A DNA stretch of 64,000 bases, from the IMG/VR virus record IMGVR_UViG_3300005264_000830, positions 62,001 to 126,000 of that record; one strand, given 5' to 3'. Below the pieces are notes generated by a model. It was not told where the DNA came from. It searched no databases and saw nothing but the letters and a program-made list of their open reading frames with translations. Positions 39,781 through 56,995 of the stretch are shown here, piece by piece. Source of the DNA: a virus. The position numbers and the translations under genes are program-made. Position 1 is the first letter of the stretch. Every line of letters starts with the position of its first letter.

Positions 39781-40564
39781 TAAAGACTATTATAAAATTC
39801 TAGGGGTGGGTAAAGATTCTTCTACAGGGGACATTAAAAAGGCTTACCGCAAACTTGCGATTAAATACCATCCAGATAAAAATCCAGATGATAGTAACGC
39901 TGAGGTTAAGTTTAAAGAGATTTCTGAAGCCTACGATGTATTAAGTGACGATGATAAGCGCAGTGCTTACGATAATCCTAATCCTCTTCATAATATGTTT
40001 GGCCACTCTGGATTTAATCCATTTGACATATTTTCAGGCGCAACTCGTAGAGGCCCACGTCCAGAAAATCCTCCTATGAGAGGGAAAGATATTCAATTAA
40101 TAATAAATGTTTCTTTGTACACTTTACTGTGTGGAGGAAAAGAAAAATTTAAAATTTCTTACGATGATCCGTGCCAAACATGTAAAGGTAAGGGTGCTAC
40201 AGAATTTGAAACCTGTTCTACTTGTAATGGCAAAGGTATGTTTGTACGTCAACAGAGGATAGGTAATATTGCCACATCTTCTACTGCGCCATGTTCTAAT
40301 TGTAGTGGAACTGGAAAATCACCTACTAATAAATGTGAGGATTGTAATGGGGCTGGTGTATTAAAAGTTAAAGATAAGGAACTTACTTTCATAGTACCTA
40401 AAAATACAGTAGACGGCTCAATTCATACATTAGTAGGCAGAGGGACTAATGGTTTGAATGGAGGAAATCCAGGAAATGTAATTGTAAAAGTAGTTATGAA
40501 ACGGCCCAATATAGATGAATTATCTGAGGAGGAAAAATCTGTATTAAAAAATATAAAATATTGA
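39773..40564 (+). CDS. dnaJ: Short DnaJ (Hsp40)-like co-chaperone
   Basis: A 263-aa protein starting at GTG (after GGAGAG). The J domain occupies residues 1-70 with HPD at 33-35, the motif that activates Hsp70 ATPase. A Gly/Phe-rich linker ('[10 protein letters not shown]') follows. The cysteine-rich zinc region (about 134-205) has four CxxCxG(K/T/A)G repeats. Only a short beta segment follows, ending '[18 protein letters not shown]', so most of the two C-terminal client-binding domains of a ~375-aa DnaJ are missing. It could recruit host DnaK for replisome remodelling or virion folding. Confidence 0.88.
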
Positions 40565-41070
40565 GTTTAGATATTTCAGCTATTTCTACTGGTTGGGCTG
40601 TAGTATCAAATAAAAATAATGATTATATATTTGGCACTATTAAAACTAAAACTGGGTTAGATACTTCTGAGAGGTTAAATGTATTTAGGATAAAACTATT
40701 AAGGTTGATGAAGAAATATAAACCAGCTGTAGTTATTTTAGAAGATACATTTGTAGGTAGGAATCCAAAAGTCAATAAATTATTATCTAAATTTGGAGGA
40801 GTAGCAGAACAGTTAGTATTTGAAATATTTGGGATGTCCCCTATTATAGTGAGTAATAAAACTGTTAAAGCCTTTTTTGGTACAAAGAAGAAAGAGAAAT
40901 TATTTATAGTGATAGCTGATTTATTGGGGTGGGATACTAGTGAATGTACTTATAAAAAATATAATGACATGGCAGACGCATGTGCTCAAGCAATGTATGT
41001 GTGTGATGTATTACTGGAAATAAAATGTATAAGGGAAATAAAAGATTATGGCTACAAATTTAGATTATAA
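40561..41070 (+). CDS. ruvC: RuvC-like Holliday junction resolvase
   Basis: A 169-aa protein, the usual RuvC size. It starts at TTG overlapping the dnaJ stop, and has '[15 protein letters not shown]' (catalytic Asp4 on the first strand), 'VVILEDTF' near residue 60 (second acid) and '[14 protein letters not shown]' near 145 (last acids). These are the RNase H-fold metal-binding positions. It should cut four-way junctions made during recombination with the RecA encoded upstream and help clear DNA for packaging. The ribosome site is distant, so coupling to dnaJ is likely. Confidence 0.8.
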
Positions 41071-41407
41071 TGTATCGTCGCTTGCTAATTATGAAAAATT
41101 TAAGATTACAGCATTAGACGCTATTATAGAACTTTTTAGTTCCGTTGGAATAGAGTTAAATAACGTTGTGAAACAATACACATTAGATTATATAGATACA
41201 TTGGCAAAAGAGTATGAATTGACTAAAGGTTTACGTATAAGCACAGAGAGGTTCAAATTCGAAGAAGAAGACGAACCAGTAGAATATGTAAAATATGATG
41301 ATGCAGTAAAAGTAATTAATGAAGTAATTGATAAACTTACACTATCTATAGTGCAATTAACGACTGTAGAAATAAGAAAATATTTGAATACAGAAGGAGT
41401 AAAATGA
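41048..41407 (+). CDS. Hypothetical acidic protein
   Basis: A 119-aa protein overlapping the ruvC 3' end by 23 bp and the next gene's ATG by 4 bp (ATGA). It is mostly helical and acidic, with 'KFEEEDEPVEYVKYDDAVKV' in the middle. No known domain is recognised. Its place between a resolvase and a RecB-like nuclease suggests a recombination partner, but there is no direct evidence. Confidence 0.6.
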   Translation: MATNLDYNVSSLANYEKFKITALDAIIELFSSVGIELNNVVKQYTLDYIDTLAKEYELTKGLRISTERFKFEEEDEPVEYVKYDDAVKVINEVIDKLTLSIVQLTTVEIRKYLNTEGVK

Positions 41408-42564
41408 AGACTATAAAATTAAGTGCGACTAGAATTAGTACTTTTTTAAGATGTAAAAGAAAATATTGGTTTCAATACGCAGAACATTTACCAAAACTTT
41501 CTAATCCATCGTTTAAGCTTGGACTGGCTTGTCATGAGTCATTAGAATTAGCTGGCAAAATTTGGATAGAGAAAGGAAAATTTACAAAAGCTGATAGAAA
41601 GAAAATTTTTGACTACTACGATAAAATCTCAGTACAAGAAGGTATAGAAGAGATGGCTATCCATGCTGAGGGAAAGAGGTTGGTTAAAAATAGAATTGAT
41701 AATTTTTCGTTAGGTACTAAAATTATCAGTCTTGAGGAAAAATTTGGATTCCCAAAAGGAAATTTTCCAAATTTAAAAACAGACCTTGGGATTCCATTAA
41801 TTGGAGCTATGGATAAAGTTATAGAATTAGATGAGGACTCGTTATTAGTAGTTGATTATAAGACATCCAAGACTGCTCCTACCCCAGATCAATTAAAGGA
41901 AGATTTGCAGCTTTCTTTATATGATCTTGTTGCAAATATAATATGGCCACAGTATAAAAGGGTAGTATTATGTTTAGATATGCTTAGATCAGAGCCAGTA
42001 TATACGTATAGAACTCCTGAGCAGAGGGAAGATTTTAATAAGTACCTTGCTGTTGTGCATAAAGAAATGTCAAGCCTCACGGAAAAGGGGGCCCATTCTT
42101 CATTGAATACCTTTTGTCCTTGGTGTGATTTTAAAGACTATTGCAAAACATACGAAGAAGCGTGTACTAAATCAGGGTATGATTTTCTTCCATCATCAAA
42201 ACTAACTGACGATGAGTTGATAAAAGAGCATGAATTGGTAAAAGATACTGCTAAGATTCTAGACACACGAAAACGTGAATTAGCAATGTTGATAATGGAA
42301 AAGATAAAACGTGGTGGCACTAATCTTGAAGGTAAGGATATAGAAATGTATCTTAGACAAAATGCTCGCACTAATTATGATGCAATATCAGTAGCTAAGG
42401 TAATACCAAAAGATGATTTCGCTACTATGGTAACATTAAGGAAAAAAGATGTAGACGCCTATTGTGCTAGACATCCTAAAGTGAAGAAACAAGTTGAAAA
42501 AAGTTCAACTACAAATTATACATCGCCATTTTTGGCAACAAAAAAAATAAAAAAGGAGAAGTAA
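41404..42564 (+). CDS. RecB/Cas4-like PD-(D/E)XK exonuclease with Fe-S cysteines
   Basis: A 386-aa protein. 'SATRISTFLRCKRKYWFQY' opens the fold; 'GLACHESLELAG' gives the conserved His; 'GAMDKVIELDEDSLLVVDYK' gives the D...D-Y-K catalytic core near residues 138-156; and 'LQLSLYDLVA' is the QxxxY helix. Cys17, Cys238, Cys241 and Cys247 ('CPWCDFKDYC') are placed as in AddB/Cas4 nucleases that hold a 4Fe-4S cluster. It likely trims DNA ends for recombination with RecA. ATG overlaps the previous stop, after AAGGAG. Confidence 0.82.
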   Translation: MKTIKLSATRISTFLRCKRKYWFQYAEHLPKLSNPSFKLGLACHESLELAGKIWIEKGKFTKADRKKIFDYYDKISVQEGIEEMAIHAEGKRLVKNRIDNFSLGTKIISLEEKFGFPKGNFPNLKTDLGIPLIGAMDKVIELDEDSLLVVDYKTSKTAPTPDQLKEDLQLSLYDLVANIIWPQYKRVVLCLDMLRSEPVYTYRTPEQREDFNKYLAVVHKEMSSLTEKGAHSSLNTFCPWCDFKDYCKTYEEACTKSGYDFLPSSKLTDDELIKEHELVKDTAKILDTRKRELAMLIMEKIKRGGTNLEGKDIEMYLRQNARTNYDAISVAKVIPKDDFATMVTLRKKDVDAYCARHPKVKKQVEKSSTTNYTSPFLATKKIKKEK

Positions 42565-43875
42565 ATGACTAAAAAAAAATTAAGTAAACAAATGAGGAAT
42601 AAAAAAATTAAAGTATTGGCTTATTGTGATTCCCCAACATGTGCTACAGGGTTTGGTACAGTTTCAAGAAATATATTTGAAGCTTTATATAAAACTGGGA
42701 GATATGATATTGATGTGTTAGGTATTAATTATTGGGGAGACCCTCATCAATTTCCATATAGAATATGGCCTACAGGGACTAACGCTCAGAAAGACCCATA
42801 TGGAAGAGAGAAAGTGATGGCAATGATTCCGCAAATGGAATATGATATATTGTTTCTATTACAGGATACTTTTATATTGAACTTTGTTCCTAGGCTTTTA
42901 GAGCAGCTCAAAAGTGCCGGAAAAACTTTTAAATCTATCTGCTATTTTCCAATTGATGGTACACCAAAAGAAGATTGGATTAAGACGGTGAATTCTGTGG
43001 ATAATCTTGTAGCTTATTCTGAGTTTGGCAAAAGAATGGCTAAAGAAGCTTTTGTTGATGTACAAGAAATGCAAGTGATCCCGCATGGGGCCAATATAAC
43101 TGATTTTAAAGTACTCCCTAGTGTTGAAGTAGATGACTTTAAAAGAATGTATTTTGGTAAACATTTTGAAAAATTTATAGTTACAAATTTGAATAGAAAT
43201 CAGCATAGGAAAGACATCCCAAGAACTATTGCAGCATTTAAAGAATTTAGAAAAGAAGTTCCAGAGTCAATTTTATATCTACATATGGCAGCTCAAGACC
43301 AAGGATGGAATCTACTTGAGGTAATAAAATCATATGGGTTTAATACAAATGATGATGTAATATTTCCAGAAAATTTTGGGCCAAATCAAGGGTATCCACG
43401 TGCTGTTGTAAATATGATTTACAATGCGTCAGACTTGGTAGTAAGTACTGCTTTAGGCGAAGGTATGGGAATGAGTTGGTTGGAAGCTATGGCTACTAAA
43501 ACACCAGTACTTATGCCTAACAATACAGCGATGACGGAATTTATTACTGAAGATAGAGGATACCTGTGTGATAGTGGTACTTCAGTAGGGCTTACTACAG
43601 TATTAGCTAACGATAATGAAGTTATACGCCCTCTCGTAGATGTAGATGACATGGCCAATAAAATGATAACTATTTATAATGATTATCCTGAAGCAGTAAT
43701 TAGAGCGGAAAATGCGTATAAGTGGATAAAAAAATCAATGGATTGGCAAGGAAATATAGGCAGAGAATGGGTAAAATTATTCGATAAGGTATATAAAGAG
43801 TTAATGGTAGAAAAAGTAGAAGGTTCCATTAAAGATGGTAATTCGAAAAAAGTTATTAAATCTGAAAGTTTATAG
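42565..43875 (+). CDS. GT-B fold glycosyltransferase (GT4-like)
   Basis: A 436-aa protein. The N-terminal part has 'KVLAYCDSPTCATGFGTVSRNI', the glycine-rich acceptor-side loop. The second domain begins 'FIVTNLNRNQHRKDIPRTIAAF' and contains 'YNASDLVVSTALGEGMGMSWLEAMA', the E-x(7)-E donor-binding motif of GT4 enzymes. It should transfer a sugar from a nucleotide donor. It is the first gene of the sugar region and is paralogous to the intein-split enzyme at 46271. Start ATG after AAAGGAG. The acceptor is unknown. Confidence 0.85.
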   Translation: MTKKKLSKQMRNKKIKVLAYCDSPTCATGFGTVSRNIFEALYKTGRYDIDVLGINYWGDPHQFPYRIWPTGTNAQKDPYGREKVMAMIPQMEYDILFLLQDTFILNFVPRLLEQLKSAGKTFKSICYFPIDGTPKEDWIKTVNSVDNLVAYSEFGKRMAKEAFVDVQEMQVIPHGANITDFKVLPSVEVDDFKRMYFGKHFEKFIVTNLNRNQHRKDIPRTIAAFKEFRKEVPESILYLHMAAQDQGWNLLEVIKSYGFNTNDDVIFPENFGPNQGYPRAVVNMIYNASDLVVSTALGEGMGMSWLEAMATKTPVLMPNNTAMTEFITEDRGYLCDSGTSVGLTTVLANDNEVIRPLVDVDDMANKMITIYNDYPEAVIRAENAYKWIKKSMDWQGNIGREWVKLFDKVYKELMVEKVEGSIKDGNSKKVIKSESL

Positions 43876-43903
43876 TTTACAAACTAAAAATATGTATTAT
43901 ATT
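43876..43903 (+). promoter_or_regulatory. Promoter-like site P3
   Basis: TTTACA at 43876-43881, a 16-bp spacer and TATATT at 43898-43903, with the same 'TATTATATTATGTAA' context as P2. It lies directly after the glycosyltransferase stop. A transcript would begin near 43910, immediately before structured element E1. Confidence 0.6.
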
Positions 43904-43916
43904 ATGTAATAAAAGT

Positions 43917-43966
43917 AAAATAATACCATAGTTCACCGGCTTTGTCCGGTGCAACTGATTGGTTAT
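43917..43966 (+). promoter_or_regulatory. Structured leader-like element E1
   Basis: Fifty bases identical to E2. Outer arms ATAA (43920-43923) and TTAT (43963-43966), CCA/TGG pairs, AGTT (43930-43933) with AACT (43953-43956), and a closing hairpin CACCGG-CTTTGT-CCGGTG (43934-43951). It sits just after promoter P3 and 17 bp before the ATG at 43984. No U-tract follows on the + strand. Confidence 0.65.
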
Positions 43967-43983
43967 AAGAAAGGAGTACTAGC

Positions 43984-44151
43984 ATGTTACATATAGATTA
44001 CAATGGAAATCCTATTGTAAAAACCCGTAAAGGGCGGTTTATGATTGATTATCATGTACAAAAGAAACACCCTATATTGTGTTTTATTCTTCGAATTGTA
44101 GTAAAACGGATTGGTAAAACTGCTCGTCACAGTCATCTACGATATATTTAG
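43984..44151 (+). CDS. 55-aa hypothetical protein behind element E1
   Basis: A short gene with an ideal AAAGGAG site 7 bp before ATG. The product is basic ('NGNPIVKTRKGRF', 'RIVVKRIGKTARHSHLRYI') and has no recognised domain. Its last 68 bp overlap the 3' end of the opposite-strand gene 44084-44284, so one of the two may be shorter or not expressed at the same time. Likely an early accessory protein transcribed from P3. Confidence 0.5.
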   Translation: MLHIDYNGNPIVKTRKGRFMIDYHVQKKHPILCFILRIVVKRIGKTARHSHLRYI

Positions 44152-44284
44152 TATTAATTACTTTATAGGTTCGATGTTGTACTGGATTCTGGTGATAAAT
44201 AATATCTCCTTCTTTCATTGGAGTATTAGAATTAATTGAGTTTGGTACTGGTTCAATGCCTTCAGTTTCGAAACGGATTTCCAT
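44084..44284 (-). CDS. 66-aa hypothetical protein, minus strand
   Basis: One of the rare minus-strand genes. AAAGGAG lies 6 bp before its ATG. The product reads like a real small phage protein: 'PMKEGDIIYHQNPVQHRTYK' and then 'YIVDDCDEQFYQSVLLQ', a beta-hairpin pattern. No family is recognised. It overlaps the end of the + strand gene 43984-44151. No minus promoter of the P1-P4 type is visible upstream. Confidence 0.55.
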   Translation of the reverse strand: MEIRFETEGIEPVPNSINSNTPMKEGDIIYHQNPVQHRTYKVINTKYIVDDCDEQFYQSVLLQFEE

Positions 44285-44324
44285 TAGGTTCTCCTTTTAG
44301 TGCTGTAAAAAAATTAATTAATTA

Positions 44325-44374
44325 AAAATAATACCATAGTTCACCGGCTTTGTCCGGTGCAACTGATTGGTTAT
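44325..44374 (+). promoter_or_regulatory. Structured leader-like element E2 (exact copy of E1)
   Basis: All 50 bases match E1 (43917-43966), 408 bp downstream. The hairpin is CACCGG 44342-44347 with CCGGTG 44354-44359. It ends 13 bp before the ATG at 44388 on the + strand and 7 bp after the stop of the minus-strand gene 44382-44579. Its reverse complement is followed by an AT-rich stretch with T runs, but not directly enough for a textbook terminator. Confidence 0.65.
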
Positions 44375-44381
44375 GAAAGGA

Positions 44382-44579
44382 TTATTTATGCATAGAACCA
44401 ACGTGAGAAGCAGCGTTAGATTTAGCGGAAAGTACAGCACTTTCTTCGTCGATACAGGGTTTGCTACTGCTGCCTGTCATACCACATTGGCATTTCCAAT
44501 AACCAAAGAAACTGCCTTTGTTTTCTTCTACAGTAATTTTGAAAATAATACTCTGAAATTCATAGGAGGTGATTAGCAT
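44382..44579 (-). CDS. 65-aa hypothetical protein with CxC motif, minus strand
   Basis: The minus-strand product includes 'FFGYWKCQCGMTGSSSKPC' and 'AVLSAKSNAASHVGSMHK', a pattern like a small metal-binding domain (Cys, Cys, Cys, His). AAAGGGG stands 7 bp before the ATG. Codon choice (T/A-ending) fits the genome better than the overlapping + frame. The start codon shares the CATG at 44577-44580 with the + strand gene 44578-44772. E2 follows its stop by 7 bp. Confidence 0.55.
   Translation of the reverse strand: MLITSYEFQSIIFKITVEENKGSFFGYWKCQCGMTGSSSKPCIDEESAVLSAKSNAASHVGSMHK
44388..44576 (+). CDS. Possible 62-aa protein behind element E2
   Basis: ATG 6 bp after GAAAGGA, directly downstream of E2, ending one base before the ATG at 44578. 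The layout copies that of E1 and its gene. However, the frame is fully antisense to the minus gene 44382-44579 and uses many AGC, TTC and ACC codons unlike the rest of the window. No domain is recognised. It may be a chance frame. Confidence 0.3.
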   Translation: MHRTNVRSSVRFSGKYSTFFVDTGFATAACHTTLAFPITKETAFVFFYSNFENNTLKFIGGD

Positions 44580-44772
44580 GTTTGAGCCCCTTTCTTATAA
44601 CCCTTATAAAGAGTTTATTGGAAGAACAATTAAAGATATTAAATATTATGGCCAGTGGGCCGATTTAGAGTTTGAGGATGGTACCAAAGCTTCTATAGAC
44701 ATAGGTATACCTGGCACTCTGTCACAAGAACAGAAAGACCAGCTTTTTATTAGTGGAACTTTTTTTAATTAA
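44578..44772 (+). CDS. 64-aa hypothetical protein
   Basis: The ATG at 44578 follows AGGAGGT by 7 bp; a GTG at 44569 overlaps that site and is not the start. The product has 'FIGRTIKDIKYYGQWADLEF' and 'EDGTKASIDIGIPG', a small beta fold with good composition. No family is recognised. It overlaps the start codon of a minus-strand gene, making a head-to-head pair. Confidence 0.65.
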   Translation: MFEPLSYNPYKEFIGRTIKDIKYYGQWADLEFEDGTKASIDIGIPGTLSQEQKDQLFISGTFFN

Positions 44773-44777
44773 GAAAT

Positions 44778-44822
44778 ATAACTTCCAAGTTGAGCGGTTT
44801 ATCCGCTCCAGCTTGTGGTTAT
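44778..44822 (+). promoter_or_regulatory. Structured element E3
   Basis: Same architecture as E1 and E2 with different stem bases: ATAAC (44778-44782) with GTTAT (44818-44822), CAAGTT (44786-44791) with AGCTTG (44810-44815, one G-U), and hairpin GAGCGG-TTTAT-CCGCTC (44792-44808). The changes are compensatory, so pairing is conserved rather than sequence. No convincing gene starts directly after it. Confidence 0.6.
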
Positions 44823-44842
44823 TGTTTAGAGTTAAACAAGGA

Positions 44843-44884
44843 AAGTGGAGTATTCAGAGAAGGTTCTCTCTTAGTACTCCACTT
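44843..44884 (-). terminator. Long hairpin, possible minus-strand terminator
   Basis: AAGTGGAGTA (44843-44852) pairs perfectly with TACTCCACTT (44875-44884); an inner AGAGA/TCTCT helix caps it. Read on the minus strand the stem is followed by a T-rich tail (TTTCCTTGTTT), and it lies 14 bp after the small minus gene 44898-44978. On the + strand no T-tract follows. Confidence 0.45.
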
Positions 44885-44897
44885 GGATTGCTACTGA

Positions 44898-44978
44898 TTA
44901 CCGCATAATTTGGTAAATGATGATTATCAAATTAATTACAGCAACTAGTAGTTTTAGGAGTACTATAAAATCTATCAT
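44898..44978 (-). CDS. 26-aa hydrophobic peptide, minus strand
   Basis: A tiny gene with the strongest ribosome site of the patch: AAGGAGGAG, 7 bp before ATG. After 'MIDFIVLLKLL' the peptide is almost wholly hydrophobic to 'IIIIYQIMR', i.e. one membrane span with a short basic end. It is followed by the hairpin at 44843-44884. Size and shape resemble small toxins, holin-like or regulatory membrane peptides, but no function can be assigned. It overlaps the start-less + frame 44958-45179. Confidence 0.45.
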   Translation of the reverse strand: MIDFIVLLKLLVAVINLIIIIYQIMR

Positions 44979-45179
44979 ATAGATTCTCCTCCTTATGTCT
45001 CGACATACTACAAATTTGAAGTACAAGGACAAAACATTTCAAATTTTATCGATGAAATAAAGGCAATCCATCCTTGTTTAATTAACTACTATATTACTAT
45101 TAATACTTTGTACAGTAATATAGAAAATAACGCCAAAAGTAACTGGCAGCAGGGCTATAGTTACTTTGAAATAAAATAA
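44958..45179 (+). other. Open coding-like frame without a standard start codon
   Basis: The frame between a TAG (44955-44957) and the TAA at 45177-45179 reads as a plausible protein ('YYKFEVQGQNISNFIDEI', 'NAKSNWQQGYSYFEIK') but holds no ATG or GTG, and its only TTG is late. AGGAG at 44956-44960 would point to ATC at 44970. The ATG at 44995 is in another frame. It may be a gene damaged by a frameshift, a gene with a rare start, or chance. The surrounding 44773-45280 stretch otherwise holds only E3, two hairpins, the tiny minus gene and E4. Confidence 0.35.
45136..45167 (+). promoter_or_regulatory. Hairpin whose loop is complementary to the E4 loop
   Basis: AAAGTAACT (45136-45144) pairs with AGTTACTTT (45159-45167). 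The 14-base loop contains CAGCAGGG (45147-45154), the exact complement of CCCTGCTG at 45217-45224, which forms the loop of E4. A kissing interaction is possible on either strand's RNA. Confidence 0.4.
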
Positions 45180-45195
45180 ATAATTTAATTAAAAC

Positions 45196-45245
45196 ATAAC
45201 AATTAAAAACTGAGACCCCTGCTGTCCAGTTCACTTGATTGTTAT
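45196..45245 (+). promoter_or_regulatory. Structured element E4; terminator-like on the minus strand
   Basis: Outer arms ATAACAAT (45196-45203) and ATTGTTAT (45238-45245) pair perfectly; the inner stem is AACTG-A-GAC (45208-45216) with GTC-CAGTT (45224-45231), loop CCCTGCT. Read on the minus strand the inner stem is followed by TTTTT, as in an intrinsic terminator, and it begins just after the stop of the minus frame 45247-45554. Confidence 0.5.
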
Positions 45246-45246
45246 A

Positions 45247-45554
45247 TCAAAAATTTTTAAAGAGGTTAATAAGGATATTTATGGTTTCAATTATTTTACT
45301 TTGGGCACCTATAATAATGGCAATTAGTGCAATTATAGTACTATATATGGCGTACCATAATTGTCGGCGAGTCAATTTTTTGGCAGATTTAGCTATACGT
45401 AGAGTTGAAATTTCACGCGCATCTCGTTTGGAATCACGTTCTTCTTGCTTAATTGACTCTTTGTTTAAGAGCCAACTTAAACAGAAGTTATGAGAAGCAC
45501 TGTCAAATTTATAACCAAGTTCTAAATGTAGAATTTTACTACGTGCTTTTTCAT
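45247..45554 (-). pseudogene. Minus-strand membrane protein gene with a frameshift at its start
   Basis: About 100 codons on the minus strand read as a convincing protein: 'LHLELGYKFDSASHNFCLSW', 'RDSKRDAREISTLRIAKSA', then a membrane span 'STIIALIAIIIG' and a short tail. The frame has no start codon. An ATG at 45554 lies in the neighbouring frame and runs into the same A-run (five A, 45547-45551). One extra A, or a -1 slip at AAA-AAG, would join ATG to the long frame. No ribosome site is visible. Element E4 follows its stop by 1 bp. It is either a slippage-decoded gene, a recent pseudogene or a sequencing error. Confidence 0.45.
45281..45493 (+). CDS. Possible 70-aa single-span membrane protein
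   Basis: ATG after AATAAGGAT. Residues 1-24 are hydrophobic ('VSIILLWAPIIMAISAIIV'), followed by a charged tail ('RRVEISRASRLESRSS'). The frame is antisense to the coding-like minus frame 45247-45554, which reads more like a real protein, so this may be its shadow. E4 lies 35 bp upstream. Confidence 0.35.
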   Translation: MVSIILLWAPIIMAISAIIVLYMAYHNCRRVNFLADLAIRRVEISRASRLESRSSCLIDSLFKSQLKQKL

Positions 45555-45625
45555 TTTGTTAGGTCAGTATGTTACTTATGTATTGTATATAATGGGAAGT
45601 GATATTAGATTGAGTAGTGATAAAA

Positions 45626-45666
45626 ATAACACTATAGTTTACTTATTTAGTACAATTTGTGGTTAT
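45626..45666 (+). promoter_or_regulatory. Structured element E5
   Basis: ATAAC (45626-45630) with GTTAT (45662-45666), AGTT (45636-45639) with AATT (45654-45657), and hairpin TACT-TATTT-AGTA (45640-45652): the E1 plan with an AT-rich stem. It lies 38 bp before the ATG at 45705. The gap 45494-45625 holds a TATAAT-like hexamer at 45588-45593 without a matching -35, and nothing else I can support. Confidence 0.5.
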
Positions 45667-45704
45667 TTATGTAACCTATAAATATAAAGAAAGGAAAATA
45701 ATCA

Positions 45705-46268
45705 ATGAAAATAAAAATTTTAAGAGAATCAGGTTACGAAGAGGCTCTATTTGGTATCGGATTGAGTTTTGGGGTAACTGATTTTTCAAGACTTGAAAAA
45801 GTAGCTACTGTATTATTTAATAAAGACGGTGGTCATAATAAATTTTTGGAATCTATACAGCTTTGGATAGAAATAACTGCTCCAAGGTATTGGTGGCAAG
45901 AATTTGATACTTATAGAGTAGGAATAACAAAACAAAGTGAATCCACAATTCATACTATAATGAAATCAAAACTAAATCAATCTCATTTCGAAAGTCCTCT
46001 AAATGAAGATATATTAGAGTTTCTCAATATATGTATACAAGATTATAAAAATTCAAAATCTACAGAACAAAAAAAACAAAACTTTAAAATTCTAAAGAAT
46101 CACTTGCCAGAAGGGTTTCTTCAAAAAAGAATTGTTAATACAAATTATAAAGTTTTAAGAAATATACTACAGCAAAGAAAGAATCATAAATTAGATGAAT
46201 GGCGAGTTTTTAATAGTGAAATATACAATCAAGTATATCATGTAGAATTTTTAATGAAAGGCAAATAA
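45705..46268 (+). CDS. ThyX-like fold protein, function unproven
   Basis: A 187-aa protein, start after AAAGGAAA, behind E5. It carries 'HNKFLESIQLWIEITAPRYW', 'FDTYRVGITKQSESTIHTI' and 'LPEGFLQKRIVNTNYKVLRN' followed by 'QRKNHKLDEW'. Order and spacing recall flavin-dependent thymidylate synthases (substrate helix, then an R-N-x(n)-R helix), but the RHR-x(7)-S signature is not exact. Such ThyX-like proteins are seen in several phage groups and may act on nucleotides or modified bases. Treat the enzyme call as a hypothesis. Confidence 0.5.
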   Translation: MKIKILRESGYEEALFGIGLSFGVTDFSRLEKVATVLFNKDGGHNKFLESIQLWIEITAPRYWWQEFDTYRVGITKQSESTIHTIMKSKLNQSHFESPLNEDILEFLNICIQDYKNSKSTEQKKQNFKILKNHLPEGFLQKRIVNTNYKVLRNILQQRKNHKLDEWRVFNSEIYNQVYHVEFLMKGK

Positions 46269-46270
46269 AT

Positions 46271-48463
46271 ATGAAGATAAAAGGTATTAGATACACAGGA
46301 CCGATTTTTGATAATTCTGGATATGCACGTGCATGTCGAGGTAATATCATGGCACTATATCATGCAGGAGTACCATTAAATTTAAACCCAATTTCATTTG
46401 AAAAAGCCTCTCCAGATTTTGGAGAAGATGGAAGAATACTTAAAAGCTTAGTTGATAATGGTGTAGAGTATAATGTTAATATAATACATTCAACTCCGGA
46501 ATTTTGGGCCAAATATAAAATAAATGGAATGATTAATATAGGTTATACCATTTGGGAAACTACAAAGTTACATTCAGATTGGCCCAAATATATTAATAAT
46601 AATGTAGATAAAGTTTTAGTAGGATGTTCTTGGAATGAAGACGTGTTTAAAGAAAGTGGGGTCACTATTCCTATTGGTGTGGTGCCTCATGGTATTAATA
46701 TGAAGGAGTTTGATAATGTATCTCCATTCCAAATCAGTGGAGTAAAAGAAGATGATTTTATGTTCTATAGTATTTTTCAATGGTGTTACGATGAAGAGAC
46801 TAGGGTCCTTACTTCAGACGGATATAAATACTTTAAGGACTTGAAGTATGAAGATGAGATAGCCACATTGAATCCTAAAACTGAAGAATTAGAATACCAT
46901 AAACCAGACAAAATTGTTAAATTCCGAAGAAAAGATAAAATGTATACACTAAAAGGGGATTTTTTTGATGTATGTGTGACTCCGGATCATAAAATGGTAG
47001 TTAAAGAAAAAGACAAGATGGCTGAAGACTGGAAACTTATTCCCTTTAACGAATTAACTTCTAGAAGTAAGAAAGGTAGGCTTATAGTTTCTGAAAAGTA
47101 TAGAGCAAAGAAAAATTGTAAATGGAGCGGCGAAGAGCAGGAAATTTTTGAAATTCCTCAAATAGAGGGTTCTAATTATCCGTTACGTAAGGACACAGCT
47201 ATAGAAATAAATATGGACATCTTTTTGGAATTTTTAGGATGGTATTTATCAGAAGGTAGTACACATAAAGCAAAACGAGGCTATGTTACTACTATTTCAC
47301 AAGTTAAGAGCGATTATAGAAAAGAAATAGTAAAATGTATCGAAGGGATGAAGTTTAATGTAATTGAGAAAAACGATTCTGCTATTATATTTAATTCTAG
47401 AGAAATGTATTATTACTTAAAGCAGTTTGGAACTGCTCAATATAAATTTATTCCTGCATTTGTAAAACAATTGAGTTCAAGACAAATTAAAATAATTTTG
47501 AACTCTTTATTTAAAGGGGATGGCTCATTATATGAAAATGGGGAATGGGTAAAGTACACTACTACTTCTAAACAATTGGCTGAAGATATTCAAGAATGTT
47601 TATTAAAAGTAGGAATGTCGGGAGCTGTATCTACAGAAGATCCTACTTTAAAAACTACAGGAAAGATAGATGGAAGAGAAATAAGAGGCAAATTATTACA
47701 GTATATTGTATCAGTTAATAGGAAACGAAATGAACCCAGTATGCATTACTCTGATCTACAAGAGATTGATTACGATGGGTATGTCCACTGTGCCACAGTA
47801 AAAAATCATATAATGTTGGTTGAGAGAAATGGAAAAGTTCTTTTTTCTGGAAATACTGAGCGGAAACATCCGATGGCATTATTGAAAGCTTATTTCAGTG
47901 CTTTTTCTGGCAAAGAAGACGTAGTTTTAGTACTTAAAACTTATAGAAGTGATTATAGCGACAGAGAAAAGGAAGCCATCCGAGAAACAATAAAACGTCT
48001 TAAAATAATTATGCCTATGGATCATTATCCAAAGATAGTTTTTCTTCCAGACATGTTGACCGAAGAAGAAATAACAGGCCTTCACGCTAGAGGAGATTGC
48101 TATGTCTCTTTTGATAGAGGAGAAGGATTTGGTTTAAGCCCATTTCAAAGCGGGGCTTGTGGTAATCCAATAATTGTTACAGGTTTTGGCGGATCTACTG
48201 AATATGCTAAAGAAGATAATAGTTATTTGATAGACTACCAACTTACTCCGGTCTTTGGTATGCCGTGGAGCCCATGGTATAAAGGAGATCAGAACTGGGC
48301 CGAGCCTAATGTTATTGATGGTGCTGATAAGATGATGCAAGTTTATAAAAATAAAGAAGAAGCGAAACAAAAAGGATTGAAACTTCAAAAGTATATTTCA
48401 GAAAACTTCTCATGGGAAGTTATCGCAAATAAAATAATAAAAGAAATTGAGGAGATTAAATGA
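46271..48463 (+). CDS. Intein-split GT-B glycosyltransferase
   Basis: A 730-aa precursor. N-extein 1-171 ('GPIFDNSGYARACRGNI', 'GVVPHGINMKEFD', 'MFYSIFQW'), intein 172-528, C-extein 529-730 ('TERKHPMALLKAYFSAFSG', 'VSFDRGEGFGLSPFQSGACG'). The joined 373-aa enzyme is a GT4-like transferase and a paralogue of the 42565 protein. The splice point lies in the strand-loop motif FQW/TERK at the start of the donor domain, matching 'NRNQHRKD' in the paralogue. The glutamate-rich 'EGFGLSPFQ' motif is in the C-extein. Ribosome site weak (AAAGG). Acceptor unknown. Confidence 0.85.
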   Translation: MKIKGIRYTGPIFDNSGYARACRGNIMALYHAGVPLNLNPISFEKASPDFGEDGRILKSLVDNGVEYNVNIIHSTPEFWAKYKINGMINIGYTIWETTKLHSDWPKYINNNVDKVLVGCSWNEDVFKESGVTIPIGVVPHGINMKEFDNVSPFQISGVKEDDFMFYSIFQWCYDEETRVLTSDGYKYFKDLKYEDEIATLNPKTEELEYHKPDKIVKFRRKDKMYTLKGDFFDVCVTPDHKMVVKEKDKMAEDWKLIPFNELTSRSKKGRLIVSEKYRAKKNCKWSGEEQEIFEIPQIEGSNYPLRKDTAIEINMDIFLEFLGWYLSEGSTHKAKRGYVTTISQVKSDYRKEIVKCIEGMKFNVIEKNDSAIIFNSREMYYYLKQFGTAQYKFIPAFVKQLSSRQIKIILNSLFKGDGSLYENGEWVKYTTTSKQLAEDIQECLLKVGMSGAVSTEDPTLKTTGKIDGREIRGKLLQYIVSVNRKRNEPSMHYSDLQEIDYDGYVHCATVKNHIMLVERNGKVLFSGNTERKHPMALLKAYFSAFSGKEDVVLVLKTYRSDYSDREKEAIRETIKRLKIIMPMDHYPKIVFLPDMLTEEEITGLHARGDCYVSFDRGEGFGLSPFQSGACGNPIIVTGFGGSTEYAKEDNSYLIDYQLTPVFGMPWSPWYKGDQNWAEPNVIDGADKMMQVYKNKEEAKQKGLKLQKYISENFSWEVIANKIIKEIEEIK
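46784..47854 (+). mobile_element. Intein with LAGLIDADG endonuclease in the glycosyltransferase
   Basis: In-frame 1071 bp (357 aa). It begins with Cys ('CYDEETRVLTSDG', block A), has 'CVTPDHKMVV' (block B, TxxH), two LAGLIDADG-like motifs ('LEFLGWYLSEGS' and 'NSLFKGDGSLYE'), and 'DGYVHCATVKNHIMLVERNG' (block F), and ends 'LFSGN' before extein Thr. The C-terminal Gly-Asn in place of His-Asn and the Thr nucleophile match an intein class common in phage genes. Confidence 0.9.
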
Positions 48464-49164
48464 AAAAAACTCTTAATGTAGGAGCAGGAGAACTTACTCA
48501 TAAGTTCTACCCAACAAATAATTATCAGTGTACAAATTTCGATCAGCGAGCATTAAAAAATATCGATGCAGTAGGAGATGTAAGAGACTTACATGTGTTA
48601 CCTTATGTAGATGAAAGCTATATAATGATTGATGATAGGACTACTGATGATACAAAAGCTATAGTAGAAGCTCGTGGGTGTAAAACTAAAATGTTTACAT
48701 TTGAAAATTTTGCAAAAACAAAAAATTGTTTATTAAAATGGGTAAATGAAAAAACAGATTGGATTATAGGAATCGCCCCAGACGAGACTATTGACCCAGG
48801 GTTTGGTAAAATGTTACAAAAATTAATTTTAAAATTACATAATTCAGATGTTGATAGTGTAAAATTTCCTAGACGGCATTGGCATGACCTAGAAAAACTT
48901 AAAGAATATACTAAACAAAATTGGTATCCTGATTGGCAATCCAGATTACTACGTGCTGATTACCCTAGGATACATTTAGTACGTTATGTACACGAAGTAG
49001 TACAGGGTGTACGTAACTCATTACAGATAAAAGAATTCGATATACATCATTTTAATCTATATTGGAAACCTAGAGTTGATTATGATTGGGAGGCTATGAA
49101 TACTTTTTATACTGAATTACAAATTAAACAACGAAAAGAAAATGGTAAGAACATTTGGCCATAA
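48460..49164 (+). CDS. Apparent methyltransferase/GT2 glycosyltransferase chimera
   Basis: A 234-aa protein. Residues 1-53 ('KTLNVGAGELTHKFYP', 'AVGDVRDLHVLPYVDES') are the start of a class I methyltransferase (SAM loop and D-V-x-D-L strand). From residue 54 it reads as the middle of a GT2 glycosyltransferase: 'IMIDDRTTDDTKAIVEARGC', 'NFAKTKNCLLKWV', 'DWIIGIAPDETI'. The GT2 first strand and the methyltransferase remainder are both missing, so an in-frame deletion fusing two neighbouring genes is likely. The GT2 part retains its D-x-D/E-like 'APDE' acid. ATGA overlap with the previous gene. Activity is uncertain. Confidence 0.7.
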   Translation: MKKTLNVGAGELTHKFYPTNNYQCTNFDQRALKNIDAVGDVRDLHVLPYVDESYIMIDDRTTDDTKAIVEARGCKTKMFTFENFAKTKNCLLKWVNEKTDWIIGIAPDETIDPGFGKMLQKLILKLHNSDVDSVKFPRRHWHDLEKLKEYTKQNWYPDWQSRLLRADYPRIHLVRYVHEVVQGVRNSLQIKEFDIHHFNLYWKPRVDYDWEAMNTFYTELQIKQRKENGKNIWP

Positions 49165-49175
49165 AGGAGAAACTC

Positions 49176-50186
49176 ATGCAAGTTGTAGTGATTGGAGCGG
49201 GCTATTGGGGTAAGAATTTAATTAGAACATTTAATAATTTAGGCGTATTAACTGCTGTATTTGATCTTAATGAAGAGTTGTTAGAGAAGTATAGAAATGA
49301 CCCTATGTATAGTGGAGTAGAGTTTGGAACAGATTATACTGAATGTTTAGAACGATGGAATATACAGGGATTTATTGTTGCTACGCCCCCTGATACGCAT
49401 TATTCGATAGCTAAAACTATATTAAATGCAGATCGACATGTATTTATTGAGAAGCCTATGACTTTGGATGAAGAAACTTCTAAAGAATTAGTAACTTTAG
49501 CTAAAAATAAAAATAAAATACTTATGGTTGGGCACATTTTTCTTTATAGCCCAGAAATTATAAAATTGAAAGAAATTATATCTTCAAAAGATTTTGGTGA
49601 GATACAATACGCATACACACAGAGATTAAATTTAGGAAAAATTCAAGACTGTGGAGTAATTATGGATCTTGCTCCTCATGATGTCTCTATTTTAGATTAT
49701 CTGTTCGAAGACATCTGTGAAGGTGTAAAAACTACTGCTGGTAGTAATATTGTTAATGGGATAGAAGATATTGCGTTTATTACTTTGCGGTATAGAAAAG
49801 GTATATTGGCACATTTACACCTTAGTTGGTTAGACCCATTAAAAGTACGTAATACTATAGTTGTAGGAACGAAACAGATGGTAGTGTGTGATTCAGGCAC
49901 AAAAAAGATAGATATTTATAATACTTCTGTAGATATAGAAAAAAGAGCACATAAATCTAATTCATCTTATGCTGCTCATTTACTTAGTTATATTCATGGG
50001 GATGTAGTGTCACCTTTTATTAGTAATGGAGAACCTATGAAAACTGAAGCAGAGGAATTTCTTAAATGTATAAAAGAAGATAGGCAACCTCTTGCTGATG
50101 GGGAATTAGGACTAAGTGTAGTTAAAACTGTATCTGCAATGAGACAATCTATGTTATCTAATGGTGAGTGGGTGGAAATTAAATGA
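49176..50186 (+). CDS. Gfo/Idh/MocA-family sugar-nucleotide dehydrogenase (WlbA-like)
   Basis: A 336-aa protein. I chose ATG 49176 (AAAGGAGAA upstream) over an in-frame TTG at 49155 inside the previous gene. The Rossmann loop 'GAGYWGKN' is at residues 7-14, 'EKPMTL' near 93 is the catalytic Lys motif, and 'DLAPHDVSILDYL' near 168 matches the WlbA/WbpB subgroup that oxidises C3 of UDP-GlcNAc-type sugars. With the aminotransferase (55883) and an acetyltransferase (51085 or 51720) it would give a 3-acetamido sugar nucleotide. Substrate is inferred. Confidence 0.8.
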   Translation: MQVVVIGAGYWGKNLIRTFNNLGVLTAVFDLNEELLEKYRNDPMYSGVEFGTDYTECLERWNIQGFIVATPPDTHYSIAKTILNADRHVFIEKPMTLDEETSKELVTLAKNKNKILMVGHIFLYSPEIIKLKEIISSKDFGEIQYAYTQRLNLGKIQDCGVIMDLAPHDVSILDYLFEDICEGVKTTAGSNIVNGIEDIAFITLRYRKGILAHLHLSWLDPLKVRNTIVVGTKQMVVCDSGTKKIDIYNTSVDIEKRAHKSNSSYAAHLLSYIHGDVVSPFISNGEPMKTEAEEFLKCIKEDRQPLADGELGLSVVKTVSAMRQSMLSNGEWVEIK

Positions 50187-51088
50187 AGGTAGGTATAATA
50201 ATTATATCATTTAATCATTATTTATTTACTAAATTTTGTTTAGATTCAATAATAAACAATACTCCTAGAGATTTGTATAGTATATGCTTGGTGGATAACG
50301 GTAGTACTGACTCCACAAAAGAGTGGGCAACAACACTTAAAAAAGATGGTAGGTTAGATCACTTTATAAGCAATGACACTAATTTAGGGGCATGTAAAGC
50401 GTCTAATCAAGGAGTATCTTGGGCCTTAGATCAATCAGAATTAACACATATATTAGTAATGGCGAATGATCATATAGTAACTAAAGGGTGGTTGCCTAAC
50501 ATGTTAAAGTCTCCATTTGACTGCGTTAACCCGTTTGTTTTCCATAGTATTAAACAAATAAGAGCCCTACACCCACCGATTGGAAGTGTTATAGATGGGT
50601 ATAAAAAACTTAGACTACAATATCTTCAAGAAGATAATGAGGGCTTGATGAACCATGTGTTAACTACTACTTATAATGGGAAACTGGAAAAATTTGCTAA
50701 AACATTCACTAATTCTTTTGTATTGGATCCTTTTGTCAGTTCTACTTTTATTTTATGGCCAGGGCTCATCATGTATAAAAGGAAAGTTATTGAGACAGTA
50801 GGATTGAAAGACGAAGAATATTTAAAATTTGATTTGGCTTCCTATGCAGATATAGATTATTATGTACGTGTATATAAGGCTGGGTTTACTTCTGGGCTCA
50901 CAAAGGGTGCTTATGTTCATCATTGGGGGTCTATAACTACTAGAAAATTAGGGTTAAAGCAAGAGCATTCGAATGGATATATAAATAATGAACGGGGGGC
51001 TTATAATTATTTTATAAAAAAATGGAAGTGTGATCCACATAATTTAGTACCCTTAGTTAAACAAAAAAATCAAAGGAAAAATAAATGA
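50183..51088 (+). CDS. GT2-family glycosyltransferase
   Basis: A 301-aa protein of GT-A fold. 'GIIIISFNHYLFTKFCLDSI' is the first strand, 'CLVDNGSTDSTKEWA' the nucleotide-binding loop, 'NLGACKASNQGVSWAL' the N-x-G-x(n)-N motif, and 'MANDHIV' holds the acid position that usually reads DxD, here N-D. 'ASYADIDYYVRVYKAG' is the late acid region, and 'VHHWGS' is typical of phage and bacterial GT2 proteins. ATGA overlap with the dehydrogenase gene suggests coupling. It would add one sugar; acceptor unknown. Confidence 0.82.
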   Translation: MKVGIIIISFNHYLFTKFCLDSIINNTPRDLYSICLVDNGSTDSTKEWATTLKKDGRLDHFISNDTNLGACKASNQGVSWALDQSELTHILVMANDHIVTKGWLPNMLKSPFDCVNPFVFHSIKQIRALHPPIGSVIDGYKKLRLQYLQEDNEGLMNHVLTTTYNGKLEKFAKTFTNSFVLDPFVSSTFILWPGLIMYKRKVIETVGLKDEEYLKFDLASYADIDYYVRVYKAGFTSGLTKGAYVHHWGSITTRKLGLKQEHSNGYINNERGAYNYFIKKWKCDPHNLVPLVKQKNQRKNK

Positions 51089-51732
51089 TTATTGAAATTA
51101 AATTAGGCCAAGTTAATGCAGGAAAAAATGTTGTAGTATTACCAGGTACTGTAATTTGTAGACCTCCTATGGCTCCTGCAGGCGTTACTCAGATAGATTA
51201 CAGTAAACTTATTCCAAAACCTGTTATTATTGGAGATAATACTATAATTGGAGCCAATACTGTTATATATAGTAATGTTACCATAGGAAAGAATTGTTTG
51301 ATAGGGGATGGGGTACATATACGAGAAGATGTAGTTCTTGGTGATAATTGTATTATTGGAATAGGGTGTAAGATTGGAGCTCGTACTGAAATTGGAAATT
51401 TTACTAGGGTTATGGATATAACAAATGTAGCAAGTGATGCTTTTTTAGGAGAGCATGTGTTTATAGGCCCAGGAGTTATGATGGGTAATGATAATGCAAT
51501 GGGGCGTGACAAAACAAAAGGTGGTTTAGATTTTACTGGTCCTTATATTGAGGATTGGGTTACTGTAGGGATGAATGCTAATTTATTACCTAGTGTTAAG
51601 ATAGGGTTAGATTCCATAGTTGCTGCTGGGGCTACAGTTACAAGAGAAATACCTTCTGGGGTACTTGTTATGGGGTCCCCTGCAAAAATAAAAAGACATT
51701 TGAAAGAAGGGGAAAAACGATGTATAATATAA
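51085..51732 (+). CDS. Left-handed beta-helix (hexapeptide) acyltransferase
   Basis: A 215-aa protein made of [LIV]-G-x(4) hexapeptides ('IIGDNTIIGANTVIYSNVTI', 'CLIGDGVHI', 'CIIGIGCKI'), with a loop of about 20 residues around 'MMGNDNAMGRDKTKGGLDF' and ending 'VMGSPAKIKR', which is the usual end of sugar O/N-acetyltransferases of the WbpD/WlbB and PglD type. It likely acetylates an aminosugar nucleotide with acetyl-CoA. It follows the GT2 gene with ATGA overlap. Confidence 0.82.
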   Translation: MIIEIKLGQVNAGKNVVVLPGTVICRPPMAPAGVTQIDYSKLIPKPVIIGDNTIIGANTVIYSNVTIGKNCLIGDGVHIREDVVLGDNCIIGIGCKIGARTEIGNFTRVMDITNVASDAFLGEHVFIGPGVMMGNDNAMGRDKTKGGLDFTGPYIEDWVTVGMNANLLPSVKIGLDSIVAAGATVTREIPSGVLVMGSPAKIKRHLKEGEKRCII

Positions 51733-52211
51733 TTGATATAGATGTAGAAATAGAAGATGGCGTACTTATAGGTTATTTCTGTGTTATAGCTAGAGGAGTT
51801 ACTGTAGGTAAAGGCTCTACGGTTGGAAGTTATTGTGAGTTAGAGGAATTCACGGTTATAGGAAATAATTGCACTTTGCAAGGTCGTATACGTACTGGCC
51901 CTGGTGTTACTATAAAGGATGATGTAGTTATTAAATATGGAACTATATTAACTGATACTGCTTTGATAAAAAAGGATGCTTTTATTGGTCCTAATGTTAT
52001 AACTTTGGGCGGAGGACATAATAGACAACGTGTAAATGGTACTATTATAGGGGAAAGTTGTTATATAGGAGCAGGTACTAAAATTGCTGGTGGGATAAAG
52101 ATATGCGATAATACTGTTGTCGGGGCAAATTCTTTTGTGAATAAAGATATAACATCTCCTGGTATTTATGCAGGAACACCGGCCAGATTTATAAAGGAAA
52201 TTAGTATATGA
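51720..52211 (+). CDS. Second hexapeptide acyltransferase
   Basis: A 163-aa beta-helix protein overlapping the previous gene by 13 bp, start after GAAGGGG. Hexapeptide turns run from 'VLIGYFCVIARGVTV' to 'VVGANSFVNKDI', and the end 'IYAGTPARFIKEI' matches sugar acetyltransferases. The insertion around 'LGGGHNRQRVNG' may carry the catalytic His (His residue in 'GGGHN'). Two adjacent acyltransferases suggest two acylated positions on the sugar, or separate donor and acceptor steps. Confidence 0.8.
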   Translation: MYNIIDIDVEIEDGVLIGYFCVIARGVTVGKGSTVGSYCELEEFTVIGNNCTLQGRIRTGPGVTIKDDVVIKYGTILTDTALIKKDAFIGPNVITLGGGHNRQRVNGTIIGESCYIGAGTKIAGGIKICDNTVVGANSFVNKDITSPGIYAGTPARFIKEISI

Positions 52212-53152
52212 AAGTAGTTGGGGTAGTTAAAGATGATTATGCTTATGCAGCTTGGAATTTATTCCAGGCCTTGCGTTTCTATGGAGTAGACGCTACTTTA
52301 ATAAATATAGCTAAGAGAAATCCTCAAATAGTAGCAAATCCCGAGTATTATGATGTTAAGTTGTGGAACCCATCTGAGAGAGCACGTGTGTTAGATTTAA
52401 TAAACACTGCCGATGTATATCACATATTTGAAAGTGGCAATACTTTTAATTTTTTACATAAATTACCTTGTAGTTTAAATAAAACTACTCCAGTAATAGT
52501 ATCGCTGAATGACAGAAGATTTTATTTATCTAACGCTGATTTAGAGATAGAGAAAGTATTAAATAAGGCTTCTATAGTTACCTCTCTAACTCTAGGTATA
52601 CAACATAAAGATGTAGTACTGGGTTTACAATGTTTAAATGAATCGGATTACTGTGATATTCCTAGCTATTCATTCAAAACAGGAACATTTTTAATAGGTA
52701 GCGCGCCAGGATATGCAGAAGCTGCAAGAGTAAAGAAAATTAAAGTTATTGCCAAACATATTAAAAATATAGATAACGTAAAGTTTGAGATTCTTATTAA
52801 GAAGAAAAGAACTTTTGTAAAAAATGCTATGTTAAATAGTTATGACGCTTTTACTCATGGTATTAGTTTTAGTGGAGGTTATGGATTTTCTATGTTAGAG
52901 GCTGCTATGTTAGGTGTTCCTTGCTTTACTTATATAAATGAGAGACAGAGTCATTTAATAGAATTAGATGGAAAATTACCGATTCTAAATTTAAAACCTG
53001 ATTGTTCTAATATGTTAAAGATAATAGAGGCTTTACGGGATACTGATACTAGACAATACTATGGAGAATTGATTCGAGAATGGGCAAGAAAATTTCATAG
53101 TAGAAAAGCAAGTTATACTACCTATACTAAATTATATAGAGAATTAATTTAA
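52208..53152 (+). CDS. GT-B-like glycosyltransferase
   Basis: A 314-aa protein. 'VKDDYAYAAWNLFQALRFYG' opens the acceptor domain and 'VYHIFESGN' is the loop facing the active site. The second domain ends with 'GISFSGGYGFSMLEAAMLGV' and 'PCFTYINERQ', the G-(Y)-G-F-S-x-L-E-A motif of GT4 donor binding. It is shorter than the 42565 and 46271 enzymes. Start after AAAGGAAA, overlapping the previous stop by 4 bp. Confidence 0.75.
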   Translation: MKVVGVVKDDYAYAAWNLFQALRFYGVDATLINIAKRNPQIVANPEYYDVKLWNPSERARVLDLINTADVYHIFESGNTFNFLHKLPCSLNKTTPVIVSLNDRRFYLSNADLEIEKVLNKASIVTSLTLGIQHKDVVLGLQCLNESDYCDIPSYSFKTGTFLIGSAPGYAEAARVKKIKVIAKHIKNIDNVKFEILIKKKRTFVKNAMLNSYDAFTHGISFSGGYGFSMLEAAMLGVPCFTYINERQSHLIELDGKLPILNLKPDCSNMLKIIEALRDTDTRQYYGELIREWARKFHSRKASYTTYTKLYRELI

Positions 53153-55882: not shown

Positions 55883-56995
55883 ATGACAATAAATTTTCTA
55901 GATTTAAAAAAACAATACAGTACATTAGACATTCAAGATATTATGGGGAATATAGAAGAAGTAATTAGGTCAGCATCTTTTGTAGGAGGTAAACACTTAG
56001 ATGATTTTGAAAAGAATTTTGGTCTATTTAACGGTTCTCCTCACACAGTAGGAGTAGGTTCTGGAACAGATGCTTTAATTCTTTCTCTCTTGGCGCTAGG
56101 AATAGGTAAGGGTGACGAAGTAATAGTACCCGCTAATACTTTTATAGCCACAGCACTAGCAGTGACTCATGTGGGAGCAACTCCTGTGTTTGTAGATGTA
56201 TGTCCAATTTCTTATTTAATTGATATAGATAAATTGGAAGAAGTAGTTACGACTAAAACTGCTGCTATTATCCCTGTACATTTATATGGTAATGCGGTAT
56301 ATATGCCAGATATTATTAAATTTGCTGACAAACACTCATTGTATGTAATAGAGGATTGTGCTCAAGCAATTGGAGCTAGAGTTAATGGCAAGCGTGTTGG
56401 AACTTGGGGCGATGTAGGATGCTTTAGTTTTTACCCAGCTAAAAATTTAGGAGGTTTAGGTCAAGGAGGAGCAGTTCTTACTTCTGATACGACCCTCGCT
56501 AATAAAATTAGAAGTTTAGGCAATGTAGGTCGCAAAGAAGATTCTTGGTATGTGTATGATAAGGTTGGATACAACTCTAGATTAGATTCTATTAATGCGT
56601 TGTTTCTTGGGATGTGTTTAGAAAAGGTAGAGCACTGGAATACATTACGCAAAGAAGTAGCAAAACTATATTACAATAAGTTAAGAGCATTAACTTGGTT
56701 GAAGCTACCAACAATGGTAAAAGGTGGAGATCATGTGTACCATTTATATGAATTGTGCTTTAGAGATTTAGATACTAGAGATGCTGTTCAACAGTATTTA
56801 CAAAGTAAGGGGATTTCTTCTGCGCTTCATTACCCAATTCCATGTCATAAACAAGAAATATATACACAGATTGAAACAGTGGATTTGCCAATAACAGAAC
56901 GATTGGCAAACACTTTGTTGTCTGTACCGATGCATCCATTTATGGAAGAAAAAGAAATAGAACAAGTGTGCTCAGCAATAGTAGATTATAAATAA
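55883..56995 (+). CDS. PLP-dependent sugar aminotransferase (DegT/DnrJ/EryC1/StrS)
   Basis: A 370-aa protein, normal length for the family. 'VGVGSGTDALILSLLALGI' binds PLP phosphate, 'VIEDCAQAIGA' holds the ring-stacking Asp, and 'SFYPAKNLGG' carries the Schiff-base Lys187. 'VGYNSRLDSINA' is the substrate-side loop seen in FdtB/WlbE-type enzymes. It should transfer an amino group to a keto-sugar nucleotide made by the dehydrogenase at 49176. Start ATG after GAGGAAAAA. Confidence 0.88.
   Translation: MTINFLDLKKQYSTLDIQDIMGNIEEVIRSASFVGGKHLDDFEKNFGLFNGSPHTVGVGSGTDALILSLLALGIGKGDEVIVPANTFIATALAVTHVGATPVFVDVCPISYLIDIDKLEEVVTTKTAAIIPVHLYGNAVYMPDIIKFADKHSLYVIEDCAQAIGARVNGKRVGTWGDVGCFSFYPAKNLGGLGQGGAVLTSDTTLANKIRSLGNVGRKEDSWYVYDKVGYNSRLDSINALFLGMCLEKVEHWNTLRKEVAKLYYNKLRALTWLKLPTMVKGGDHVYHLYELCFRDLDTRDAVQQYLQSKGISSALHYPIPCHKQEIYTQIETVDLPITERLANTLLSVPMHPFMEEKEIEQVCSAIVDYK

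Follow-up and report, generated by a model that had tools for sequence, protein, structure and literature searches.

Inteins are usually described in genes for the copying of DNA. An element that interrupts a sugar-transfer gene of a virus raises the question of whether it is truly an intein, whether it is mobile and what makes such a gene its host. The gene lies in the stretch of 64,000 nucleotides that we analyzed, here called the window, which spans positions 62001-126000 of a 129,404-base viral record. From the evidence below we consider it almost certain that the element is a mobile intein of class 1 type with a LAGLIDADG homing endonuclease, one that would excise itself from its host protein and that resides in a repeatedly targeted gene cluster.

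Identification of the intein and its host protein

The host gene, GT-B, encodes a GT4-like glycosyltransferase precursor of 730 residues (46271-48463, + strand, as are all features of the gene given below). Its N-extein of 171 residues ends in FQW (46271-46783) and is followed by an intein of 357 residues (46784-47854; precursor residues 172-528) that begins with Cys1 and ends with Ser-Gly-Asn, and then by a C-extein of 202 residues plus the stop codon (47855-48463), whose first residue, Thr+1, opens the sequence TERK. The intein is in frame, with CYDEETRVLT at its N-terminus and VLFSGN at its C-terminus, flanked by SIFQW and TERKHP. In profile searches the open reading frame matched LAGLIDADG_3 (Pfam) at 34.3 bits against a cut-off of 22.5. 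The matches to Intein_splicing (Pfam; 21.6 bits versus a cut-off of 35.8, E 2e-4, covering residues 180-513) and to intein_Nterm (NCBIfam; 19.2 bits, cut-off 24.5), the latter beginning at the junction itself, fell below the curated cut-offs, as is expected for a divergent member.

Block B of the splicing domain, TPDH (Thr66 and His69; 46979-46990), was located by alignment, as were the two LAGLIDADG motifs: FLGWYLSEG, with the acid Glu157 (47231-47257; placed by the alignment with PI-PkoII as well), and LNSLFKGDG, with the acid Asp246 (47498-47524; alignment of 12 inteins). Glu157 and Gly158 are invariant among the 12 aligned inteins, as are Gly245, Asp246 and Gly247. His69 and Asn357 are likewise invariant, Thr66 is replaced by Asn in two relatives (L080 and L102), and Cys1 is present in all nine inteins found at this site, which we term site a. 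The penultimate residue is Gly356 and not His. With the intein as a single query, the only solved structure matched by sequence was the AceL NrdHF intein. The AlphaFold model of the intein (pLDDT 87.8, pTM 0.87) found its best PDB matches among inteins that bear homing endonucleases, namely TliVMA (7qsu, E 1e-17), PI-SceI, PI-PfuI and PI-PkoII. A scan of positions 40000-50000 with Rfam found no group I or group II intron and no other RNA. The insert at 46784-47854 is not a chance pattern, and the complete LAGLIDADG intein that had been predicted from the DNA alone was confirmed as an exact, in-frame insert with the fold of endonuclease-bearing inteins.

The class 1 LAGLIDADG inteins PI-PkoII, PI-PfuI, PI-SceI and TliVMA likewise have a splicing domain split around a two-motif LAGLIDADG endonuclease. 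The window intein shares with them Cys1, the TxxH of block B, the C-terminal Asn, a +1 nucleophile and the predicted fold, at 11-14% identity in structure alignments, but differs in having Gly in place of the penultimate His and a glycosyltransferase as its host.

An intein-free homolog of the host protein (L004) was modeled as a GT-B fold (pLDDT 83.9). The model matched GT4 enzymes, with the chlorovirus transferase B736L first (3oy2, E 1e-16) and PimB', MshA and BshA also among them, and a profile search for GT-B found 3oy2 as well (E 6e-15). In this model a strand (residues 163-169) precedes the junction (171/172) and a helix (177-188) follows it; the intein thus enters the donor domain at its first loop between strand and helix, in keeping with the original prediction, which placed it between FQW and TERK at the entry to that domain. 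The entry point immediately precedes an Arg-Lys pair, which, as in GT4 enzymes generally, would bind the donor phosphate. The first Glu of the E-x7-E motif is invariant, and the second is Gln in the window and variable in relatives. For the Pfam glycosyltransferase domain (cut-off 26.4 bits), the window extein scored 24.8 bits and two relatives scored 33.5 (L002) and 28.8 (L012). Neither by GT-B (26% identity at best) nor by the helicase (33%) does the virus have a close named relative.

Empty and occupied homologs

A less biased sample of homologs was obtained with an alignment query consisting of the N-extein only, which spans none of the intein sites discussed here. Site a could be resolved in 58 genes, including that of the window. 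In 48 it is empty, the sequences corresponding to the two exteins being contiguous and in frame, and in the other 10, the window among them, it holds an in-frame insert of 1.03-1.09 kb. The intein-free homologs that had been called for to fix the splice point therefore confirm it. The nine other contigs with an intein at the same codon (eight of them distinct) have 58-74% identity to the window intein; as some IMG/VR contigs are near duplicates, with L237 and L238 apparently representing a single lineage, we count nine occupied lineages. A search with the C-extein gave a similar picture in 18 viral loci, 16 with FQW or FQF joined directly to a TERK-like sequence and two with an intein. Relatives of the intein in viral contigs were found by an alignment-based search but not by exact-peptide matching.

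The residue at -1 is Trp and that at +1 is Thr in every occupied gene, compared with 26/48 and 25/48 of the empty genes, respectively. The association of Trp with occupancy is significant by Fisher's test (p 0.009), a value uncorrected for the relatedness of the sequences. Elsewhere among the empty genes the +1 residue is V, Q, F, I, M, N or H, of which V, Q, F, I or M could not serve as a splicing nucleophile. The expectation that the gene would be widespread holds among related viral contigs, which makes it a plausible target for homing. The further suggestion that the enzyme matters to the phage does not follow from the mere occurrence of an intein in its gene.

Evidence for mobility and selection

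The nine site-a inteins have 53-88% mutual identity, and their relationships do not follow those of the proteins that carry them. By extein sequence the window is nearest to L016 (72%; tree support 100/99), whereas by intein sequence it is nearest to L019 (74%) and falls in a group with L019, L102 and L103 (support 100/100), L016 being placed instead with L080 and L104/106/107. In AU tests of these pairs, which were chosen from the identity table ahead of testing, the extein data rejected the pairing of the window with L019 (p 1e-4) and the intein data rejected its pairing with L016 (p 1e-6). In the closest trio, dN/dS is ~0.1 for both the intein and the extein. Between L104 and L107 the inteins (dN 0.064, dS 0.61) are less diverged than the exteins (dN 0.180, dS 1.02). 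Taken together, the conflict between trees, the low dN/dS and the invariant catalytic acids are what a homing intein on which purifying selection still acts would show, and the window copy may encode an active endonuclease.

Relatives of the intein and the chemistry of its ends

The original prediction regarded the splice ends, Gly-Asn followed by Thr+1, as unusual, which for this family they proved not to be. A scan of genome contigs identified 215 relatives of the intein, of which 80 were kept, mostly from archaea, CPR and uncultured bacteria. Among the 76 cellular relatives inspected, a set chosen by similarity to the query, all except one end in Gly-Asn (75/76), and the +1 residue is Ser in 44, Thr in 17 and Cys in 14. 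Splicing without a penultimate His has already been documented, as cited in a review (PMC4031507). We regard this residue as common and not obligatory, and did not take it as defining of inteins here.

The cellular inteins with C/S-G-N ends (from archaea, CPR and other bacteria) have 29-38% identity to the window intein over its full 357 residues and the same ends, but reside at different sites in different host genes. These include anaerobic ribonucleotide reductase (RNR) and NDP-sugar epimerase/dehydratases, as assigned by Pfam, and, judged by eye from the sequences at the junctions, EndoQ-like (PHP), MiaB-like and ThyX genes. In the sampled tree, site a is closest to the intein of an anaerobic RNR gene. 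No glycosyltransferase was found among the host proteins of cellular relatives that were examined, part of which were identified. The presence of relatives in genes for RNR and NDP-sugar short-chain dehydrogenases means that sugar-related intein hosts are not unique to this phage gene. Ten inteins of the wide family (L120, L125, L126, L140, L142, L171, L176, L141, L150 and L172) interrupt NDP-sugar epimerase/dehydratase genes in the genomes of archaea, CPR and bacteria, and inteins seem to enter genes for sugar-nucleotide enzymes repeatedly.

A further intein of this kind occurs in another phage GT4 gene (L109/L111) and has 33% identity to the window intein over its full length. Like site a, its insertion point is near the start of Glyco_trans_1_4 (profile position ~10 versus 12), and placement of the two in the same loop derives from these Pfam profile positions alone, as the GT-B profile could not be usefully aligned with the L109 transferase by HHalign. 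The L109/L111 host belongs to a different glycosyltransferase family, and in the tree its intein pairs with a cellular EndoQ-like intein and not with site a. Two other examples were also noted. In Prevotella phage Lak-A1 (L099, 3001-4113), an intein of 30% identity with the end CGN/S is located in an unannotated Lak megaphage protein that has a zinc-finger-like C-extein. A related insert in a prohead-protease-like protein (L100; LR756508, 3001-4077) ends TGN/S and starts with Ala instead of Cys or Ser, possibly a variant or decayed N-terminal nucleophile.

Additional intein sites in GT-B and its neighbors

Related phages have inteins at two further sites in GT-B, both empty in the window and not foreseen in the original prediction. 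Site b, at EGFGL/S (48134-48139, + strand; junction 48136/48137), is occupied in five relatives (L016, L017, L019, L054 and L080) and also in L063, where the intein is interrupted by the end of the contig; these inteins end in LLHN or LMHN and have Cys at +1. Site c, at GMPW/S (48266-48271, + strand; junction 48268/48269), is occupied in six relatives, five of them distinct (L009, L013, L019, L054 and L107/L110), by inteins inserted at MPW/S that end in SSN.

Two neighboring genes that are also intein-free in the window have inteins elsewhere. One is GT-A, a paralogous glycosyltransferase gene upstream (42565-43875, + strand) with relatives of 39% identity in Tetrasphaera phage TJE1. Six contigs (L008/L244, L054/L212, L016/L198, L068, L231 and L247) have a sequence-verified intein at EGxGL/S in GT-A, and gap size indicates one in L206 and L216. 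HHalign pairs EGFGLS of GT-B with EGMGMS of GT-A, making site b and the GT-A site equivalent, and, members of their own groups aside, the inteins of these two sites match each other best (E 8e-40 over the full length). The other is the ThyX-like gene adjoining GT-B (45705-46268, + strand), which holds an intein at TKQSE/ST in four contigs. In L016/L198 there are four inteins across three neighboring genes, and in L019/L214 there are three in GT-B and one in the ThyX-like gene, the count of three relying on reading through frameshifts in the b and c regions that are probable sequencing errors.

When conservation was ranked across 60 GT-B sequences, the ten residues around each site fell in the top 8% for b, in the top 14% for c and at 31% for a (joint p 0.02); inteins in general favor conserved positions and motifs (PMC2814812). 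It is possible, though we put it forward tentatively, that one intein lineage moved between the paralogous glycosyltransferases by homing into an identical codon of EGxGL/S, that both conserved nucleotide-sugar-binding motifs have been colonized within a single glycosylation locus and that inteins systematically target phage glycosyltransferases.

Several intein sites in one gene, some of them co-occupied, are likewise known from the MCM (CDC21) gene of Haloarchaea, which encodes an archaeal replicative helicase, whereas GT-B is a phage gene for sugar transfer (PMC10643990). The inteins of mycobacteriophages resemble those described here in their phage hosts, in their location at active-site motifs and in having thymidylate synthase among the host proteins; their other hosts are terminase, RecB-like protein, nucleotidyltransferase, methylase, primase and similar proteins, and the term "glycosyl" is absent from that paper (PMC5050341). 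We found no report of an intein inside a glycosyltransferase in the literature searched, which covered few subscription papers, so that the case for its absence from the literature is weak. The element is of a known kind; what appears to be new is the glycosyltransferase host and the invasion of a glycosylation locus at multiple sites in multiple genes. With up to three inteins in GT-B of related phages and more in its neighbors, a sugar-transfer gene is a regular intein target, which extends the known host range from enzymes of DNA and nucleotides and indicates that recurrence and conserved motifs, and not a role in replication, can make a gene a target. With three invaded sites, a paralog hit at the equivalent position and numerous empty alleles, this is a good natural system for the study of homing, co-infection and the interplay of neighboring inteins. 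There is also a warning for annotation: glycosyltransferases of 730 to 1200 residues predicted in such phages are probably precursors of enzymes of ~370 residues.

Proposed mechanism and alternatives

We propose that the intein is translated within the glycosyltransferase precursor and would excise itself by formation of a thioester at Cys1, transfer to Thr+1 and cyclization of Asn357, thereby joining FQW to TERK. The unspliced precursor would have 357 additional residues separating the donor domain's first strand from the Arg-Lys loop, and should be inactive. When phages co-infect a cell, the endonuclease would cut those copies of the gene that lack the intein, and repair of the break would use the intein-bearing copy as template. 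The repeated target is the cluster of GT-A, the ThyX-like gene and GT-B, with three sites in GT-B and one in each of the others.

Other explanations of the segment were weighed against this one. That it is an integral, non-splicing domain of a glycosyltransferase subfamily, the case that the original prediction had set against itself, would suit a frame that is open throughout. However, the 48 homologs without the segment show no gap at the exact junction, the insert has the ends of an intein and the fold of endonuclease-bearing inteins, and the trees of the insert and the host gene disagree; we consider there to be virtually no chance that this reading is correct, and rejected it on account of the empty homologs. 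A splicing intein with a dead endonuclease that is vertically inherited and no longer homing would accord with the ~5-to-1 excess of empty over occupied genes, yet is unlikely in view of the two catalytic acids retained in 12/12 aligned inteins, the dN/dS of ~0.1 and the discordance of the intein and extein trees.

It is also conceivable that the intein is not purely selfish and has been retained as a regulator of the transferase, since sites a and b are at nucleotide-sugar-binding motifs, where splicing would gate activity, and conditional splicing is described for other inteins (PMC5790916, PMC8557812). We think this very improbable, because inteins in general normally sit at conserved motifs (PMC2814812), and a patchy presence (10/58 at site a) combined with horizontal movement suits a selfish element. 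Similarly slight is the likelihood that the site-a intein arose by a short-range jump from the intein of the ThyX-like gene, even though this gene is adjacent to GT-B and the inteins of the two sites are ~30-36% identical end to end and both end in SGN. When cellular relatives were included, a clade of the site-a and ThyX inteins was rejected (AU p 0.007), which excludes this origin at present sampling, and it is the anaerobic RNR intein that is nearest to site a. The mobile class 1-type intein thus remains the preferred reading.

Other features of the window

A second intein of 435 residues (61933-63237; C...VHN/C) is located at the NFGL/CYGLS motif of a family A DNA polymerase (60631-63717), a common kind of phage intein host. 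Beyond these two inteins, the contig has no other match to LAGLIDADG_3 or Intein_splicing. In a 1.8-kb stretch of tiny open reading frames between GT-A and the ThyX-like gene there is a direct repeat of 60 nucleotides, present in only two copies in the window (43907-43966 and 44315-44374; 93% identical). It had no Rfam match and holds a perfect hairpin, CACCGG-CTTTGT-CCGGTG, and is possibly a terminator or promoter cassette. Downstream of GT-B, positions 48460-53152 and 55883-56992 encode GT2-like transferases, an oxidoreductase-like protein, a DegT aminotransferase and two hexapeptide-repeat acyltransferase-like proteins, a locus that is a predicted phage-encoded sugar-modification cluster.
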